From contig NZ_SDWS01000001.1 of the NCBI RefSeq assembly GCF_004137245.1, forward strand, positions 1-64,000: 64,000 nt of DNA, given 5' to 3'. The notes under the pieces were generated by a model. The model was not told where the DNA came from. It was given only the letters and a program-made list of their open reading frames with translations, and did no database searches. Origin of the DNA: Nocardioides glacieisoli (GTDB taxonomy: Bacteria > Actinomycetota > Actinomycetes > Propionibacteriales > Nocardioidaceae). Numbering within the stretch: position 1 is the first letter of the stretch; every line of letters starts with the position of its first letter. The translations under genes were made by a program, and so were the position numbers. Of the stretch, positions 14,814 through 23,148 are shown piece by piece.

Positions 14814-15137
14814 TCAGAAGGACGTGTGTGCTCGGGACCGGGCGCGCCGCGTCTTCAGCTCGAGGACGGCAAGGTCAGCCCGCAAGGGGCGACTGCACCC
14901 GGTGATGGTGAGGGCCACGCCCGACGCCACTGCGGCGGCACAGCAGCGTCTCAGGCCCTCCGCGCCGTCCAGGTCCGCGTGGGTAACCCTCGTGAGGTCG
15001 AGTCCGACGAAGCGGGCACGCTGGCGAAGCGCAGCGTCCACACAGCACCGCAGGTCGTACGCGGCGACGACATCAAGACTGCCGTCGACCACGATCGATG
15101 TCGCTCCCGCGACTGCGAACGAGGTGATGTGGTGCAT
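14814..15137 (-). CDS. STAS-domain protein
   Basis: 107 aa from ATG 15137 (GGAG 9 nt upstream). A single small STAS-like domain: IVVDGSLDVVAAYDLRCCVDAAL, VGLDLTRVTHADLDGAEGLRRCCAAA, ALTITGC. The usual phosphorylatable Ser in the DLSxVxFxDSSG motif is replaced (THADLDGAE), so it is unlikely to be a classical anti-sigma antagonist substrate. An in-frame longer form is possible but has no good start signal. It diverges from the gene at 15360. Confidence 0.6.
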   Translation of the reverse strand: MHHITSFAVAGATSIVVDGSLDVVAAYDLRCCVDAALRQRARFVGLDLTRVTHADLDGAEGLRRCCAAAVASGVALTITGCSRPLRADLAVLELKTRRARSRAHTSF

Positions 15138-15359
15138 CCCCGGTCTCCGCTGTGCTCGAGGTGTTGCACGGTGGCGTGCTCTGAGGACCAACTGTAGGAG
15201 CGGGTCGCTGGAGTGCGAAGCCCAGTTGTAATTGTTCATGCGGCCGTAACCCAAGAGGCCCGGCGAGACGGGGATTCGGCCGATCTCGACGTGGCGGCCG
15301 GGTGCTCGGGACTCGGGACTGGGACGGATTCGTTCATCTGCGTGTGGTCCACTCGCCGC

Positions 15360-15695
15360 ATGCCAGCAACCCAGGTGTCGGGCCGCCACACGCGCATCGA
15401 CGCCACGCTCGACGGTGTGGTCCTGAGCCGCTCGAAGTCGCGCTCCCGCCGCCACGAAGTGGAGCGTGTGGAGCTGGTCGGCTGGGACCGGGTCGTGGGC
15501 GCCTCGATGCTCAAGTCTCGCAGTGGGCGGCCCGTCGTCCGGCTCGCCGTCGACGGTCACGAGGCGGCCGAGCACCACCGCGACGACCCCTTCTCGGTCA
15601 AGCTGCAGAGCGGCTCGCTCGCAGCCGCACAGGAGTTCGTCGACCACGTGAACTTCGAGGTCGACGTACGGCGCCGCTGGCGCAGCGTCACGTGA
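15360..15695 (+). CDS. Hypothetical protein, 111 aa
   Basis: From ATG 15360 the protein is a compact beta-rich sequence (ATLDGVVLSRSKSRSRRHEVERVELVGWDRVVGASMLKSRSGRPVVRLAV) that resembles small PH-like domains in spacing of strands, then a C-terminal helix (SLAAAQEFVDHVNFEVDVRRRW). This fold reading is inference; I do not recognise the family. Codon use is good. It precedes the NRPS operon by about 170 bp on the same strand, without visible coupling. Confidence 0.6.
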   Translation: MPATQVSGRHTRIDATLDGVVLSRSKSRSRRHEVERVELVGWDRVVGASMLKSRSGRPVVRLAVDGHEAAEHHRDDPFSVKLQSGSLAAAQEFVDHVNFEVDVRRRWRSVT

Positions 15696-15867
15696 TGCGT
15701 ACGGGATTGCGGCGTCCGCGCGAGCCCTGACGGAGGCCGGTGAGGCGCGGCTTGATCCGGAGTACGCGCGAGGCAGATGTCCGATTCCTGTGCCATCAAG
15801 GGTGTTCAGGAACTGTTCACCGGGGTCTGCCACGGTGCGCATCCCGTCGCACCCAGCCAGAGGATGA
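15696..15867. promoter_or_regulatory. Presumed promoter region of the Pls operon
   Basis: 172 bp ahead of the small ORF at 15868. It contains GTTCAGGAAC followed directly by TGTTCAC at about 15801-15818, a GTTCA direct repeat inside a small palindrome that could be an operator. No confident -35/-10 pair. Confidence 0.35.
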
Positions 15868-16008
15868 ATGTTGCTCCAGGACGTCCGTGCCTATATCGAT
15901 CGCCTGCACCCATACGGACACTCCATCGGGGAGGGCCACGCTGACGATCCCGTCCTGTTGGATGCGCACCTGAGACCTCGTGACGCCCGGATGGCTGTCG
16001 GCGACTGA
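15868..16008 (+). CDS. Candidate 46-aa leader or small protein of the Pls operon
   Basis: ATG 15868 is preceded by AGAGGA at good spacing. The frame encodes 46 residues starting MLLQDVRAYIDRLHPYGHSI and ends with TGA 16006-16008, one base before the synthetase ATG at 16010. The product is acidic-amphipathic with several His, no signal peptide. It is too short and unlike MbtH. The tight spacing suggests translational coupling to the synthetase. Not recognised; it might be a leader peptide or an accessory factor. Confidence 0.45.
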   Translation: MLLQDVRAYIDRLHPYGHSIGEGHADDPVLLDAHLRPRDARMAVGD

Positions 16009-16009
16009 C

Positions 16010-19000
16010 ATGGCCGACGACGCCGGGGTCCAGCCCCTTCTCCCTTCACTGTGCGCGGCAGACCGCGCACCACGAGCGCGCACGCTCGTCGACATCTTCC
16101 GCGAGGTCGCGGAGTTCGCCCCGCAGGCTCCTGCGATCGACAGCGGCGTCACCGTGCTCACCTACGACGAGCTCGCGGAGGCAGCTGACCGCGTCGCGGC
16201 AGAGCTCCGCCAGGCCGGCGTCCAGGTCGGCGACAAGGTGGGAGTGAGGATCAACTCGGGCACGACCGATCTCTACGTGGCCATCCTCGGCATCCTCTGC
16301 GCCGGGGCTGCCTACGTTCCCGTCGACGCAGACGACCCAGACGACCGGGCACGGGTCGTCTTCGACGAATCCGGCGCCGTCGCCGTGGTGGGGAGCGACC
16401 TACAGATCGAGCGCCGCCAGCCGCTGGCCACGTCCGCGCCTGCTGTTCAGGGCGACTCGGGTCCGTCGGCGGACATTGACGCGTGGGTGATCTTCACGAG
16501 CGGGTCGAGCGGGAAGCCGAAGGGCGTCGCAGTCACGCACCGCAACGCTGCGGCCTTCGTCGATGCGGAGTCCCGCCTGTTCCTCGTCGACGAGCCGATC
16601 GGTCCGGGCGATCGCGTGATGGCGGGCCTGTCGGTCGCCTTCGATGCCAGTTGCGAGGAGATGTGGCTGGCCTGGGCGTACGGCGCGTGCCTCGTGCCGG
16701 CTCCGAGGTCTCTGGTCCGCAGCGGTGTCGATGTCGGTCCGTGGCTCGTGGCCAACGCCATCACTGTCGTCTCGACGGTGCCGACCTTGGTGGCTCTGTG
16801 GCCGCCGTCATCGCTCGACCGGGTGAGGCTGCTCATCATGGGCGGAGAGGCGTGCCCACCGGAGCTCGCCGTGCGACTGCAGCGTCCGGGCAGGGAGGTG
16901 TGGAACACGTACGGCCCGACGGAAGCGACCGTCGTGGCGTGCGCTGCGCTGCTCGACGGCTCGGAACCCGTCCGCATCGGACTGCCGCTCGACGGGTGGG
17001 ACCTGGCGGTTGTCGACTCGGAGGGCCACCCGGTCGCGGAGGGCGGCACCGGGGAGCTGATCATCGGTGGTGTCGGCCTGGCCCGCTACCTCGACGAGGC
17101 GAAGGACGCCGAGAAGTACGCGGCCATGCCGACCTTGGGCTGGCCCCGGGCGTACCGCTCGGGTGATGTCGTCCGTAACGACCCGCAAGGCCTGGTGTTC
17201 GTCGGGCGGGCCGATGACCAGGTCAAGCTGGGTGGACGCCGCATCGAACTGGGGGAGGTCGACGAGCACCTCCTGCGGCTACCTGGCGTACAGCAAGCAG
17301 CCGCTGCTGTGAAGTCGACCGCGAGCGGGAACCGGCTCCTCGTCGGCTACCTGACGGTGGATGCGTCCTACGACGCACGGACTGCTCAGGAGCTGCTCCG
17401 CGGTCGACTGCCGGCGGCTCTCGTGCCGCGGCTCGCCGTCGTCGAGGAGATGCCGACCCGCACCAGCGGCAAGATCGATCGTGATGCGCTGCCGTGGCCG
17501 CTCCGACCGTCTGCGGTGAGAACGGCACGACTGAGCGAGACGCAACAGTTTCTGGCCGACATCTGGGCCGACGTCCTGGGCGCGGACGTGACCAGCCCTC
17601 GCGACGACTTCTTCGACTTCGGGGGAGGGTCGCTCACCGCTGCCCAGGTCGTGAGCCGGATCCGTGAGCGCTATCCGGACATCGTCGTCGGCGACGTCTA
17701 CGCCCATCACACCCTCGCGGCACTCGCCGACATCCTGCCCGCACTTACCCGCACTCAACCCGTCAGCAACCGCCAGGTGCGACCCCTCCCACTCAAGACA
17801 CAGGCCGGCCAGCTGATCGCACTGGTTCCGCTCCGGTCTCTCGCCGGACTGCGGTGGCTCAGCTGGCTGTTGCTCGGCTCCGCCCTCGCCGGCCCGGCCC
17901 TCGAGCTCGAAGGACTTCCGCAAGCGCCGCTGTGGGTCATCATTCTCACGACGTGCATCTTCCTCGTCCCGCCGGGGCGCATGGCGCTGGCCGCGCTGCT
18001 GGCTCGCAGCGTGCTCGGTCCCGTCACCCCCGGCGAACACCCACGAGGCGGCAAGATCCACCTGCGCATCTGGCTCGCCGAAAGGATCCAGGACGAGCTC
18101 GCTGCCACGTCACTGGCGGGCGCCCCGTGGTTCCCGCTGTACGCAAGGCTTCTGGGCAACACGATCGGACAAGGGGTCGACCTGCACTCCGTGCCCCCGG
18201 TGACCGGGATGCTGAGCGTGGGCAACAGCGCCGCCATCGAACCTGAGGTCGACCTTGCCGGGCACTGGATCGATGGGGACGTCCTGCACGTCGGTGCGAT
18301 GAAGGTCGGGGCGCGAGCGCGAGTAGGGGCCCGATGCATGCTGGGTCCCGGCTCGTCCGTGGGCAAGGACGCGGAGGTCGCCCCCGGTTCACTGGTCCTC
18401 GGTGCGGTGCCCAGCGGCGAGTTCTGGGCCGGGTCACCGGCCACCCAGCGACGCATCGAGGCCCGAGGCCCGTGGCAGGACCCACCCGTGGGTCGACAGG
18501 CATCGACCGAGAGCGCATGGCTGGGGGTCTACGGATTGCTGGCCGTCCTCATCGCCGCGCTCCCAGTGGCGTCCGTGCTGCTTGGAGCGGGCGTACTGCT
18601 GCCGGCCGTGCGCGAGGCCGAAGGACTGAGCGAGGCCATCAGGCGTGGACTCCCGTGGCTCCCGCTTGCCGTGGTCGTGGGGTACGCCTCGCTGGCGCTC
18701 ATGATCGTGGTGCTGGTCCGCTCACTGGGTGCTGGCATGCAGCCGGGGTTCCACCGCGTGCGATCGGCCACCGGGGTCCGCATCTGGAGCACCCTGCGAG
18801 TGCTCGACGAAGCCCGCACCTGGCTGTTCCCGCTGTACGCCAGCTCGCTCACGCCGACGTGGCTCCGGCTGCTGGGTGCCCGTGTCGGCCGCGGGGTCGA
18901 GGCGTCGACCGTGCTGCTCATCCCGAAGTTCACCACGGTCGGCGACGATGCGTTTCTCGCCGACGACACCCTCGTCGGCTGCTACGAGCTCGGCGGTGGC

Positions 19001-19903
19001 TGGATCCGCGTCGACCAGGTGAAGATCGGCAAGCGTGCCTTTGTCGGCAACTCCGGCATGGCGGCGCCCGGCCGCAAGGTGCCGAAGGAGTCGCTCGTCG
19101 CGGTGCTCTCGGCGGCGCCCGCGCGACAGGTGGCGAAGTCCGGATCGAGCTGGATGGGAAGTCCGCCCACCCGCCTCCGGCGCACGGCGACGGTCACCGA
19201 CGACCGTCTCACGTACGCGCCCGCCACCAGGCTCAGGGTGGCCCGCGGATTCGTCGAGCTCCTGCGAGTCGTCCCGCTGCTCCTCCTCGCGCTGCTCCAC
19301 GTCGGCATCGGGGTCACCCTCCTCGCGCTGCTGGAGGTCCACGCGCTTCTGGCTGTCTTGCTCGCCGGGCCCGTCCTGATCATCGCGGGGATGGCAGCAG
19401 CGTTGCTGACGGTCGCCGCCAAGCTGCTGCTCGTGGGCCGTCACCGGGCCGATGACCATGCACTGTGGTCGTCGTTCGTGTGGCGCAACGAGCTCGCCGA
19501 CACGTTCACCGAGGTGCTCGCGGCGCCGTGGTTCGCCGCACCGGCGCAAGGCACCGTGGCGCTCAACGTCTGGCTGCGGATGCTGGGGGCCCGCATCGGT
19601 ACCGGCGTGTGGTGCGACACCTACTGGTTGCCCGAGACCGACCTCGTGGCGCTCGAAGACGGAGCCACTGTCAATCGCGGCTGCGTCGTGCAGACGCACC
19701 TGTTCCACGACCGCGTCCTCAGCATGGACACCGTCACCCTGAAGGAGGGTGCGACGCTCGGTCCCAACAGCGTTATCCTTCCGGCTGCGACGATTGGTCG
19801 GCACGCAACCGTGGGCCCGGTATCTCTCGTGATGCGCGGGGAGGGTGTGCCTTCCCGGACCTGCTGGATCGGGAACCCGATCGGCCCCTGGGAGGCACCG
19901 TGA
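16010..19903 (+). CDS. Pls/PosA-type NRPS, predicted epsilon-poly-L-lysine synthetase
   Basis: 1,297 aa (Streptomyces Pls is about 1,300). Adenylation domain, about 30-500: FTSGSSGKPKG (A3), FDASCEEMW (A4), NTYGPTEAT (A5), GRADDQVKLGGRRIELGE (A8), RTSGKIDRD (A10 Lys). Carrier domain about 510-580 with FFDFGGGSLTA, the Ser being the phosphopantetheine site. Then three repeats of a paired membrane segment plus a cytosolic left-handed beta-helix (hexapeptide) domain, at about 610, 840 and 1080 onward. My alignment to GrsA gives specificity residues D-A-E-S-I-G-T-V-V-K, close to the published lysine code D-A-E-S-I-G-S-V-C-K. There is no condensation or thioesterase domain, as in Pls. It should activate lysine and extend an isopeptide-linked homopolymer at the membrane. 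The substrate is an inference. Confidence 0.88.
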   Translation: MADDAGVQPLLPSLCAADRAPRARTLVDIFREVAEFAPQAPAIDSGVTVLTYDELAEAADRVAAELRQAGVQVGDKVGVRINSGTTDLYVAILGILCAGAAYVPVDADDPDDRARVVFDESGAVAVVGSDLQIERRQPLATSAPAVQGDSGPSADIDAWVIFTSGSSGKPKGVAVTHRNAAAFVDAESRLFLVDEPIGPGDRVMAGLSVAFDASCEEMWLAWAYGACLVPAPRSLVRSGVDVGPWLVANAITVVSTVPTLVALWPPSSLDRVRLLIMGGEACPPELAVRLQRPGREVWNTYGPTEATVVACAALLDGSEPVRIGLPLDGWDLAVVDSEGHPVAEGGTGELIIGGVGLARYLDEAKDAEKYAAMPTLGWPRAYRSGDVVRNDPQGLVFVGRADDQVKLGGRRIELGEVDEHLLRLPGVQQAAAAVKSTASGNRLLVGYLTVDASYDARTAQELLRGRLPAALVPRLAVVEEMPTRTSGKIDRDALPWPLRPSAVRTARLSETQQFLADIWADVLGADVTSPRDDFFDFGGGSLTAAQVVSRIRERYPDIVVGDVYAHHTLAALADILPALTRTQPVSNRQVRPLPLKTQAGQLIALVPLRSLAGLRWLSWLLLGSALAGPALELEGLPQAPLWVIILTTCIFLVPPGRMALAALLARSVLGPVTPGEHPRGGKIHLRIWLAERIQDELAATSLAGAPWFPLYARLLGNTIGQGVDLHSVPPVTGMLSVGNSAAIEPEVDLAGHWIDGDVLHVGAMKVGARARVGARCMLGPGSSVGKDAEVAPGSLVLGAVPSGEFWAGSPATQRRIEARGPWQDPPVGRQASTESAWLGVYGLLAVLIAALPVASVLLGAGVLLPAVREAEGLSEAIRRGLPWLPLAVVVGYASLALMIVVLVRSLGAGMQPGFHRVRSATGVRIWSTLRVLDEARTWLFPLYASSLTPTWLRLLGARVGRGVEASTVLLIPKFTTVGDDAFLADDTLVGCYELGGGWIRVDQVKIGKRAFVGNSGMAAPGRKVPKESLVAVLSAAPARQVAKSGSSWMGSPPTRLRRTATVTDDRLTYAPATRLRVARGFVELLRVVPLLLLALLHVGIGVTLLALLEVHALLAVLLAGPVLIIAGMAAALLTVAAKLLLVGRHRADDHALWSSFVWRNELADTFTEVLAAPWFAAPAQGTVALNVWLRMLGARIGTGVWCDTYWLPETDLVALEDGATVNRGCVVQTHLFHDRVLSMDTVTLKEGATLGPNSVILPAATIGRHATVGPVSLVMRGEGVPSRTCWIGNPIGPWEAP

Positions 19904-21198
19904 GTTCGGAGTCAGACCATCCTGCGCCCTACATCCCCGGACACGGTGACGAGAGCTTCGACGTCACGCACTACTCGCTGGGGCTCGCCTACAAGCTGGT
20001 CAACAACCGCCTCGACGGCGAGGCCGTTCTCAGCTGCGTCTCACGCAGCGACGGGACCTCGGTCACCCTCGACCTCGCCGGACTGCGCGTCGCACGGGTG
20101 TTCCTCGACGGCAAGCCTGCCCGATTCAGCCACCGAGGGTCGCGGCTGACGGTGAGCGGAGCCTTCGCGGCCGGTCAGGAGTTCGAGCTCCGGGTCAGCT
20201 ACGGCGGCTCGCCCAGCACTCTCAAGGCACGTCACCTGGACCCCGCAGGTTGGGAGGAGCTCACCGACGGCGTCATCGTGGCCGCCCAGCCGCACGGCGC
20301 GCCGACCTGGTTCCCGTGCAACGATCGACCGTCCGACAAGGCGACGTACGCCGTCACGATGACTGCGCCCAACGACTACTACGTCGCCATGTGCGGCACG
20401 CTCGCCGGCACCAGACGCAGGGGGTCAGTGACCGAGTGGACCTGGGAGATGAACCACCCGATGGCGAGCTACCTCGCGACGGTGCAGATCGGACGCTACG
20501 AGGTGCGCGCCCTCAGCGAGCACGTCACCGTCATCGCCCCGACGGATCTCAAGGGCGAGGAGTATCACGCCTCCTTCGGCCAGCAGCCCCTGATGCTCGA
20601 CTACTTCGAGTCCGTGTTCGGCTCGTACCCGTTCGACCACTACACCGCCGTCGTGACTGACGACCCGCTCGAGATCCCGCTCGAGTCACAGTCGTTGTCC
20701 ACCTTCGGCCGCAACTTCGCCTCCAGCGACTGGGGCGCCGTCCGGCTCGTCGCGCACGAGATGGCCCACCAGTGGTTCGGCAACGCCGTGACGCTGACCA
20801 GCTGGAGCGACATCTGGTTGCACGAGGGCTTCGCCTGCTACGCCGAGTGGCTCTGGTCGGAGGAATCAGGACGTGCGTCTGCCGACGAGCAGGCTGAGAA
20901 CCATTACGGCAAGCTCGCTGACCTGGATCAGGACCTGCTGCTCATCGACCCCGGACCGGCGCTCATGTTCGACGACCGGGTCTACAAGAGGGGCGCCCTC
21001 ACCCTGCACGCGCTTCGTCGGGTCGTGGGCGACCGTACGTTCTTCGACATCCTCCAGACCTGGGTCACCCGTTACACCGGCCGCAACGTCACGACGTCTG
21101 ACTTCGAGGCGGTGGCGGCCGAGGTGAGCGGCCAGCGACTCGACGACCTCTTCGACGCGTGGCTCCGCTCGTTGGAGCTGCCGGACCTACCTCGGTGA
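19900..21198 (+). CDS. M1-family zinc metallopeptidase, likely polymer-processing
   Basis: 432 aa from GTG 19900, overlapping the synthetase stop (GTGA). N-terminal beta domain about 1-200, then the thermolysin-like catalytic domain: [31 protein letters not shown], i.e. HExxH-x18-E zinc site. The GxMEN exopeptidase loop of classical aminopeptidases is replaced by [13 protein letters not shown]. The C-terminal helical domain of larger M1 enzymes is missing. No signal peptide, so cytosolic or membrane-peripheral. Poly-lysine producers carry a zinc peptidase that trims epsilon-poly-lysine; co-translation with the synthetase suggests that role here. Generic aminopeptidase activity is the alternative. 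Confidence 0.88.
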
Positions 21199-21668
21199 CG
21201 AGCGACGTCGACGTCGCATGGCACGACGCGTCGGTGGACGCAGGCGTCGCGCTCGCCGGACACGTCGACCGACTCATGGGCCGCTCCGGAGCTGTGACGT
21301 CGGGTCGCTTGTGCGGAGCCTGCGGCAGCGACCGCCACGGGCGTCCGTGGCTGCGTCATGACGGTGTGGTCGTCCATGTCTCTCTCGCCCGCTCGGGCCC
21401 CCATCTGGTCACGGTGGTCGCACAGGCGCCGGTGGGTGTCGACGTCGAGGTGGCGGTGATCGACGTCGCACCCGCGTTGGTGCTGGCTGCCGGTGAGGAC
21501 GAGGATCTTGCCCGGACGTGGGCGCGCAAGGAGGCGGTCCTCAAGGCGTACGGGACCGGGTTGGTGGTCTCGATGGCGGACGTGCACCTCGACCGTGAGC
21601 GCTGGCGAGACCTGGCTGCACCCGAAGGTTTCGTCGCGGCGGTCGCATTTGCGCCGCCGAAGGTCTGA
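21195..21668 (+). CDS. 4'-phosphopantetheinyl transferase, Sfp type
   Basis: 157 aa from GTG 21195, overlapping the peptidase stop by 4 nt (GTGA). Core motifs of the family are present: VHVSLARSG (first His/Ser region), VGVDVEV (Mg-binding Asp pair) and WARKEAVLKAYGTGL (WxxKEAxxKxxGxGL). It is short compared with about 220 aa for Sfp, lacking most of the N-terminal pseudo-repeat. It should transfer the phosphopantetheine arm from CoA to the carrier Ser of the synthetase two genes upstream. A dedicated transferase coupled to a Pls-type gene makes the locus self-contained. Confidence 0.85.
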   Translation: MTSDVDVAWHDASVDAGVALAGHVDRLMGRSGAVTSGRLCGACGSDRHGRPWLRHDGVVVHVSLARSGPHLVTVVAQAPVGVDVEVAVIDVAPALVLAAGEDEDLARTWARKEAVLKAYGTGLVVSMADVHLDRERWRDLAAPEGFVAAVAFAPPKV

Positions 21669-21715: not shown

Positions 21716-22432
21716 ATGATCACTGACCAGTCAACGCGTGGCGGCGGCTCCCGTGAGCTGGACCGTCGGGTACGAGTGCACGCCGCTCTGGCGGACTCCA
21801 CGCGGCTGCGCATCACCGACCATCTCGCCTACGGCGACGCATCGCCAACCGAACTACAAGCGTTGCTCGGCATCCCCTCGAACCTGCTGGCCCATCATCT
21901 CGGTGTCCTCGGCGAGGCCGGTGTGGTCACCCGGCGTCGCTCCGAGGCCGACCGGCGCCGCTCCTACGTGCGGCTCCTGCCCGACGCCTTGGACGGCCTT
22001 CTCCCGCGGAACGGGACGACGGTTTCTCGGGTCGTCTTCGTCTGTACGGCGAACTCCGCACGTTCCCAGCTGGCCGCCGCCTTGTGGGCGCGGGTCAGCG
22101 CGGTCCCCGTGGCGTCCGCCGGTACCCACCCGGCCGGTCGAATCGCGGCCGGTGCCCTCGAGGTCGCCGGCCGGCGTGGCGTCGCTCTGGGCCAGGCTCA
22201 GCCCCTGCCGTTCGCCGACGTTGTCCGGCCCGACGACTACCTCGTGACCGTGTGCGACAACGCCCACGAGGAGCTCCACCAAACTTCCAGTGACCTCCCC
22301 TCCCTCGCGATGGGGCTGCACTGGTCGATCCCCGACCCGGTCCGGGTCGCCACCGCTGCGGCCTTCGACGCCGCGTTCGACGAACTGAACCAGCGCGTCA
22401 TCCATCTCGCCCCACATCTCACCGCCGTCTGA
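21716..22432 (+). CDS. ArsR-type repressor fused to arsenate-reductase/LMW-phosphatase domain
   Basis: 238 aa from ATG 21716. Residues about 12-95 are a winged-helix ArsR domain (VHAALADSTRLRITDHLAYGDASPTELQALLGIPSNLLAHHLGVLGEAG). Residues about 105-238 are a low-molecular-weight phosphatase/ArsC fold: VVFVCTANSARSQLAAALW is the C-x5-R anion loop and SAGTHPAG and DPVRVATAAAFDAAFDEL are family segments. Fused ArsR-ArsC proteins are known in actinobacteria; the ArsR part senses arsenite/antimonite, and the ArsC part reduces arsenate, perhaps with mycothiol. It lies 11 bp upstream of a second arsC. Confidence 0.87.
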   Translation: MITDQSTRGGGSRELDRRVRVHAALADSTRLRITDHLAYGDASPTELQALLGIPSNLLAHHLGVLGEAGVVTRRRSEADRRRSYVRLLPDALDGLLPRNGTTVSRVVFVCTANSARSQLAAALWARVSAVPVASAGTHPAGRIAAGALEVAGRRGVALGQAQPLPFADVVRPDDYLVTVCDNAHEELHQTSSDLPSLAMGLHWSIPDPVRVATAAAFDAAFDELNQRVIHLAPHLTAV

Positions 22433-22443
22433 GGAGAAGCCGC

Positions 22444-23148
22444 ATGTCCGAGACAACCCCGCCCGCTGATGCATCGATCGAGACCGCGAATGCAAGCCGC
22501 ACCGACATCACTCTCGACCAGCGGGTGGCTCTGAGATCCGCTGCCACCCGACTGTCCGGCAGTTTCGAGGGCGTCTTCGGCGCCGAGACCATTGAGCGGT
22601 TTCTGACCACCAGCTACCAGCAGTTCGCCAATCGGGCGACGGTCGCGAACTTCCTGCCGCTGCTTGCCGAGCGGTTCGCCAGGCAGCGCCTCACGGCCCT
22701 CGCGCGGGTCGAGGGCAAGGTCAGCGACGGAAAGCCGGTGGTGCTCTTCTTGTGCACCCACAACGCTGGCCGCTCCCAGATGGCGCTCGGATTCTTCACC
22801 CACCACGCCGGCGACGCTGCGACCGCCTGGTCCGGCGGGTCCGAGCCGGGTGTCGAGATCAACCCGGCCGCCGTCGCCGCGATGGCTGAGGTCGGTATCG
22901 ACATCTCGGGGGAGTACCCCAAGCCGTGGACCGACGAGATCGTCCAGGCCGCCGACGTGGTCATCACCATGGGCTGCGGCGACGCCTGCCCCATCTTCCC
23001 CGGCAAGCGTTATGAGGAGTGGACCCTGGAGGACCCCGCAGGTCAGGGCGTCGACGCGGTGCGACCCATCCGAGACGAGGTCGAACGCCGAGTGGTGGCC
23101 CTGCTCGCCGAGCTCGGCGTTCCAGTCACCAGCGCCCTCACCGCCTGA
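22444..23148 (+). CDS. arsC: Arsenate reductase, LMW-phosphatase type with N-terminal helical domain
   Basis: 234 aa. Residues about 28-90 form a three-helix N-terminal extension seen in actinobacterial arsenate reductases and relatives. The catalytic domain follows: VVLFLCTHNAGRSQMALGF (C-x5-R loop with the nucleophilic Cys), SGGSEPGVEINPAAVAAMAEVGIDIS, and ITMGCGDACPIFPGKRYEEWTLEDPAG, containing the extra Cys and the conserved DP. It is similar in layout to the Corynebacterium arsenate-mycothiol transferase system, which is the likely chemistry. No arsenite exporter (ArsB/Acr3) is next to it, so efflux must be encoded elsewhere. Confidence 0.9.
   Translation: MSETTPPADASIETANASRTDITLDQRVALRSAATRLSGSFEGVFGAETIERFLTTSYQQFANRATVANFLPLLAERFARQRLTALARVEGKVSDGKPVVLFLCTHNAGRSQMALGFFTHHAGDAATAWSGGSEPGVEINPAAVAAMAEVGIDISGEYPKPWTDEIVQAADVVITMGCGDACPIFPGKRYEEWTLEDPAGQGVDAVRPIRDEVERRVVALLAELGVPVTSALTA

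Follow-up and report, generated by a model that had tools for sequence, protein, structure and literature searches.

Positions 16010 (or 15980) to 21668 of the window, by which we mean the whole 64,000-nucleotide stretch of Nocardioides glacieisoli DNA analysed here, hold three genes, all on the + strand: pls, for a predicted epsilon-poly-L-lysine synthetase (16010..19903), a gene for a PldII-like M1 metallopeptidase (19900..21198) and a gene for a compact Sfp-type 4′-phosphopantetheinyl transferase (PPTase) of 157 amino acids (21195..21668). As the sequence-only reading had it, they form one unit with two GTGA junctions: at 19900..19903 (+) the TGA stop of pls (19901-19903) overlaps the GTG start of the M1 gene (19900), and at 21195..21198 (+) the TGA stop of the latter (21196-21198) overlaps the GTG start of the PPTase gene (21195), which ends at 21668. 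Since both 4-nt overlaps are kept in a congener, G208 (GTGA at the first junction, ATGA at the position equivalent to the second), they are not due to chance. For pls, ATG 16010 is the most likely start, because G208 has a GTG at the matching place after the common string GGCGACTGAC; GTG 15980 is a possible alternative. The unit had been proposed to begin at 15868, but at that position a different ORF, of 46 codons, begins with ATG (15868..16005, +); it lies directly upstream of pls and resembles the N-terminus of a polyphosphate kinase 2 (PPK2). That the three products would be made in a fixed ratio, and that the unit would be self-contained, we infer.

The synthetase belongs to the Pls/PosA family according to TIGR02353 (659 bits against an NCBIfam cut-off of 423), and its expected A-T-(TM/beta-helix)x3 layout agrees with the domains found: an adenylation (A) domain at 16085..17509 (+; PF00501), a thiolation, or carrier (T), domain with a GGGS motif at 17549..17734 (+; PP-binding, PF00550) and, at 17810..19882 (+), a C-terminal membrane part predicted to comprise three hexapeptide beta-helix domains with TM pairs between them (TIGR02353, PF00132). 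Pls has six transmembrane segments that separate C1-C3; hydropathy of residues 640-1140 reveals five to six hydrophobic segments here, and a profile search of the protein matched no condensation (C) or thioesterase (TE) family. The synthetase shares 52% identity with a protein from Streptomyces named epsilon-poly-L-lysine synthase Pls by RefSeq, and the top PDB match of its A domain is that of Streptomyces albulus Pls, 7wew (E 1e-179); the references for comparison with the S. albulus type were the RefSeq-named Streptomyces locus and the 7wew chain. The binding-pocket code, D-A-E-S-I-G-T-V-V-K (K being residue 498), had been described as close to the lysine code; when aligned with 7wew, it proved to be the same at 10/10 positions. 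The code alignment comprised 97 sequences, of which two were unreadable and 95 readable at all ten positions; DAESIGTVVK is found in 94 of these 95, window counted, and the remaining one has V at position 5. Because the code equals that of 7wew throughout and that of nearly every relative, lysine is by far the likeliest substrate to be predicted, and epsilon-poly-L-lysine the likeliest product. A Pls-type synthetase outside the Streptomyces-like genera, as here in Nocardioides, is not a novelty: homologues with such pockets are known from Corynebacterium, Brevibacterium, Arthrobacter and others (PMC8117764). The Corynebacterium variabile enzyme is 51% identical to Streptomyces Pls and is encoded in an operon with a peptidase gene. 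This locus is silent in C. variabile itself; in S. coelicolor the enzyme yielded epsilon-PL. One Corynebacterium Pls was expressed in C. glutamicum, yet gave no product (PMC8117764).

The second protein agrees with the proposed PldII-like partner in having an M1 fold (PF01433, 104 bits; PF17900), the HExxH-x18-E motif and the 4-nt coupling to pls. Its best PDB match is 6a8z, an M1-type zinc metalloprotease. An M1 gene lies downstream of pls on the same strand in all 80 named relatives, with an in-frame 4-nt overlap in 48/80. In Nocardioides, the close homologues (53-79% identity) almost all adjoin pls, and genomes without pls have only a paralogue of 36-42% identity. The pls/M1 overlap is common, and it had already been described: the 4-nt pls-pldII overlap is known in S. 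albulus, and PldII, an epsilon-PL degrader, is called translationally coupled to pls (PMC4361855). According to Yamanaka 2010, as cited in PMC3937719, the degrading enzyme does not set the chain length.

The third protein matches PF01648 (30.7 bits for a cut-off of 25). Its AlphaFold model has a pLDDT of 93.8 and finds Sfp and PptT as top PDB matches, the best being 4mrt (E 1.3e-7), in which Sfp is bound to CoA and a carrier protein. D83 and E85 (in GVDVE), E113 and K117 (in WARKEAVLK) are invariant across 26 aligned homologues, in which a CxxC...HGxP stretch is also conserved. An Sfp fold is predicted, with the catalytic residues in place, among them the metal-binding D-x-E and the glutamate of WxxKEAxxK. 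Sfp enzymes usually carry an SHS motif; here the corresponding residues read SLARS. The other two PF01648 proteins of the N. glacieisoli genome (G000) are of the AcpS type, so the PPTase of the trio is the only Sfp-like candidate found there. The genome also encodes three carrier domains besides the T domain of Pls. No homologue of the PPTase was found on plasmids in the genome collection searched.

That a PPTase in the same overlapping unit would be a non-standard feature could be evaluated through a census of its position and orientation. A PPTase beside pls was detected in 22 of the 80 named loci and lies on the strand opposite to pls in 22/22; the genera with such a convergent gene include Nocardioides, Aeromicrobium, Ornithinimicrobium, Arthrobacter, Paenarthrobacter, Kocuria, Humibacillus, Compostimonas and others. 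When the hit tables for PPTase, pls and M1 are read jointly, about 38 Nocardioides genomes show the convergent and five the co-directional arrangement. Diverged copies may be overlooked by sequence, and this softens absences such as those at the pls loci of Nocardia, Mycobacterium and Rhodococcus among the 80, where no neighbouring PPTase was detected. A co-directional PPTase with a 4-nt overlap was found in G000 and G208 only. In G299, the assembly of which is rich in frameshifts, the PPTase is co-directional in the order M1>TPR>PPTase>LLM>FMN; in G211 and G276 the co-directional PPTase is diverged and separated by a spacer, apparently a separate case. The idea that a PPTase is unique to the window locus is thus ruled out: the NRPS-M1-PPTase trio is recurrent, as is the adjacency of the PPTase, but the PPTase is nearly always convergent, and what is unusual is its co-directional 4-nt coupling. 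Furthermore, the PPTase is neither exclusive to pls nor required beside it, because it is kept in three Nocardioides genomes where no pls was found (G193, G232 and G118, as PPTase-TPR-LLM) and goes undetected at the loci of the three genera just mentioned. No paper linking a PPTase to a pls operon was found in the literature searched, which does not prove absence. The coupled, co-directional PPTase is a rare derived variant, and the remainder of the locus is of a known kind. From the sequences, the functional reading of the three predicted proteins is well supported, and the novelty is restricted to this coupling.

The surroundings of the trio also differ from those of its relatives. The genes of G178, G204, G226, G188 and G180 run pls>M1> <PPTase <TPR LLM> FMN>; in G197 no TPR gene was detected at the locus. 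With the TPR, LLM and FMN proteins of G178 as queries, the TPR-LLM-FMN locus was found intact in both G000 and G208, elsewhere in the genome and without the pls cassette. The cassette of the window and the downstream LMWP-phosphatase-like genes split segments that are neighbours in contig 13 of G178. Directly upstream of pls, the 46-codon ORF has no Pfam or NCBIfam match, but 31 of its amino acids match, at 55% identity, the N-terminal end of the PPK2 encoded at L167:6073-6960 (PF03976, 332 bits), and it is probably a truncated 5′ remnant of ppk2. Positions 15803-15903 are 74% identical, over ~100 nt, to the equivalent place in G208, whose upstream region retains a shorter remnant, MSVLQDVRDYIDR. 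An operon of four genes, in which the ORF would be a real small gene, was rejected, as the match is limited to the PPK2 N-terminus and the ORF is shorter still in G208. Both G214 and Aeromicrobium sp. Root344 have an intact ppk2 next to the PPTase gene. The trio of G000 and of G208 does not occupy the ancestral site and follows a fragment that resembles the 5′ end of ppk2. A foreign base composition of the cassette was looked for as well, but its GC of 0.693 is similar to that of its surroundings.

For the phylogenies, the few neighbouring genes TPR, LLM and FMN stand in for a species tree. Their combined tree places G000 with G178 (99/99; 96% identical) and rejects G000+G208 (p 0.0024). The cassette genes give a different picture: in the Pls tree G178 goes with G204 (100/100), Pls of G000 and G178 are only 82% identical, and AU tests reject G000+G178 for Pls (p 2e-5), M1 (p 0.02) and PPTase (p 0.0004). 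For Pls, the pairing G000+G208 gains no support but is not rejected either (p 0.32), and in the PPTase tree G000, G208 and G299 come together with modest support (87/87). The conflict between the pls, M1 and PPTase trees and the core genes suggests that the cassette was relocated or exchanged; horizontal exchange is likely, though unproved, because a few neighbouring genes replace the species tree. As for G299, its locus resembles the site seen in G178 with TPR and PPTase inverted, and is the likely intermediate.

The reading that we regard as probable is that of an epsilon-poly-L-lysine locus in which Pls makes the polymer, the M1 peptidase trims or degrades it and the PPTase activates Pls, the co-directional arrangement at the new site being derived. 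Pls would adenylate L-lysine and load it on the phosphopantetheine of the T domain within the same protein; a short cationic polymer would then be formed by the membrane C-terminal part, which would link the lysines via their epsilon-amino groups. The M1 peptidase would be translated from the first overlap and may trim or degrade this polymer for self-protection or length control, and the PPTase, made from the second overlap, would turn apo-Pls into holo-Pls. With both downstream genes translated from overlapping starts, a single transcript could thus yield synthetase, degrader and activator. The ancestor presumably had the PPTase gene tail-to-tail with the peptidase gene. The PPTase gene would have been inverted, probably together with the adjacent TPR gene, which was later lost from between, leaving the PPTase coupled, and the cassette now occupies a different site, where it follows the 5′ end of an apparent ppk2 gene. 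Taken further, these steps would describe a portable, self-activating epsilon-poly-lysine cassette, whose convergent activator was inverted, which lost TPR, captured the ppk2 5′ region and changed both its site and its host species within Nocardioides; this we put forward tentatively, as a scenario somewhat on the doubtful side.

Another view of the third gene is that it encodes a general activator of cellular carrier proteins which merely adjoins pls, the coupling reflecting gene packing and no need of Pls. We consider this rather unlikely. It would account for the persistence of the PPTase beside the TPR-LLM-FMN genes in genomes without pls and for the lack of a detected copy beside pls in mycobacteria and Nocardia, and the three other carrier domains of G000 need activation too. 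However, many genera have the PPTase next to pls and M1, in G000 and G208 it has left the TPR site and travelled with pls, and the 4-nt overlap is retained in both. An assembly artefact might be suspected when the reverse orientation is the rule among relatives, but this is very improbable: the independent genomes G208 and G299 show the same orientation, the junctions of G208 and the window agree in position while differing in detail (ATGA versus GTGA), and the PPTase and M1 frames, which overlap at their 3′ ends in close relatives with the convergent order, are complete in the window without overlap there.

A different basic substrate, or a mixed or tailored polymer instead of plain epsilon-poly-L-lysine, is conceivable for a family whose polymers also include those of ornithine, diaminobutyrate, diaminopropionate and beta-lysine. 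It is nevertheless improbable, given that the code is that of S. albulus Pls and that the published alternatives differ from it: DMEHNGTVSK for the ornithine enzyme PosA of Acinetobacter baumannii (PMC10522769) and DGESISVVNK for a beta-lysine enzyme, the paper with the non-lysine codes assigning alanine at position 2 to Pls. Regarding the history of the cassette, a move within the genome, with fast or paralogous divergence and no exchange between species, deserves some credit, though less than even. Its GC content resembles that of its surroundings, and G000 and G208 both keep an intact TPR-LLM-FMN locus without pls, so the move may be old and vertical. Such a history would, however, have to explain why the core genes are 96% identical to those of G178 when Pls is at 82%, and why a pairing united by the core tree is rejected for all three cassette genes.

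Among known systems, the S. albulus pls-pldII operon is a close parallel to the preferred reading of an epsilon-poly-L-lysine locus: it shares with the window the architecture of Pls, its code (7wew) and a degrading peptidase encoded next to it with a 4-nt overlap (PMC4361855). No PPTase is reported for it in the literature found, in contrast with the trio of the window, and the window M1 shares only 41% identity with a Streptomyces M1 whose gene is coupled to pls. The C. variabile pls-peptidase operon likewise comes from a non-streptomycete actinobacterium, with a lysine pocket and epsilon-PL made in a heterologous host, but no PPTase is described there either (PMC8117764). The convergent pls>M1> <PPTase loci of Nocardioides, Aeromicrobium, Arthrobacter and others have the three homologous genes in the same order; they differ in that the PPTase is on the opposite strand, with its 3′ end near or overlapping that of M1, whereas in the window it is co-directional, with a start-stop overlap. 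PosA of A. baumannii belongs to the same Pls/PosA family, but has the ornithine code and forms a single-gene operon (PMC10522769). If our reading is correct, the locus would offer, outside Streptomyces, a compact source of a polymer approved as a food preservative, with a candidate activating enzyme encoded alongside, and the trio would be useful for asking whether PPTase supply limits the activity of Pls in heterologous hosts. The convergent, inverted (with TPR between) and coupled arrangements would then form a readable series for the recruitment of a neighbouring gene into an operon.

Abutting pls (16010-19903) on its upstream side is a plus-strand ORF of 46 codons (15868-16005) that is similar to the N-terminus of polyphosphate kinase 2 (PPK2). 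The block upstream of this ORF is common to the window and Nocardioides genome G208, so a promoter that once served ppk2 may now drive pls. Nocardioides G214 and Aeromicrobium sp. Root344, in which the PPTase gene is next to pls-M1, have a complete ppk2 divergent from the PPTase gene (L167:6073-6960 and L095:12826-13665, coordinates of the respective loci); PPK2 could be relevant to the ATP that making the polymer requires. A STAS-domain gene region lies upstream of pls here (14814-15842, minus strand), whereas in Nocardioides G178 (contig 13, 34389-37677) it is flanked by segments that correspond to 23.4-26.2 kb of the window; its placement is a mark of local rearrangement.

A diverged PPTase gene is located 3' of M1, on the same strand and after a spacer, in Nocardioides G211 and G276 (L179:4586-5069; L180:4620-5045), possibly through independent re-orientation. 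Three Nocardioides genomes in which no pls was found (loci L158, L160 and L162) retain PPTase-TPR-LLM at the ancestral site.

Downstream of the PPTase gene, two genes with a low-molecular-weight phosphatase (LMWPc) domain follow in succession (21716-22432 and 22444-23148); the first, with a fused HTH domain, has the look of an arsenate-type regulator/reductase. In the plasmid collection, Streptomyces, Rhodococcus opacus and Mycobacterium avium have plasmids or plasmid-like replicons that carry pls-like genes.
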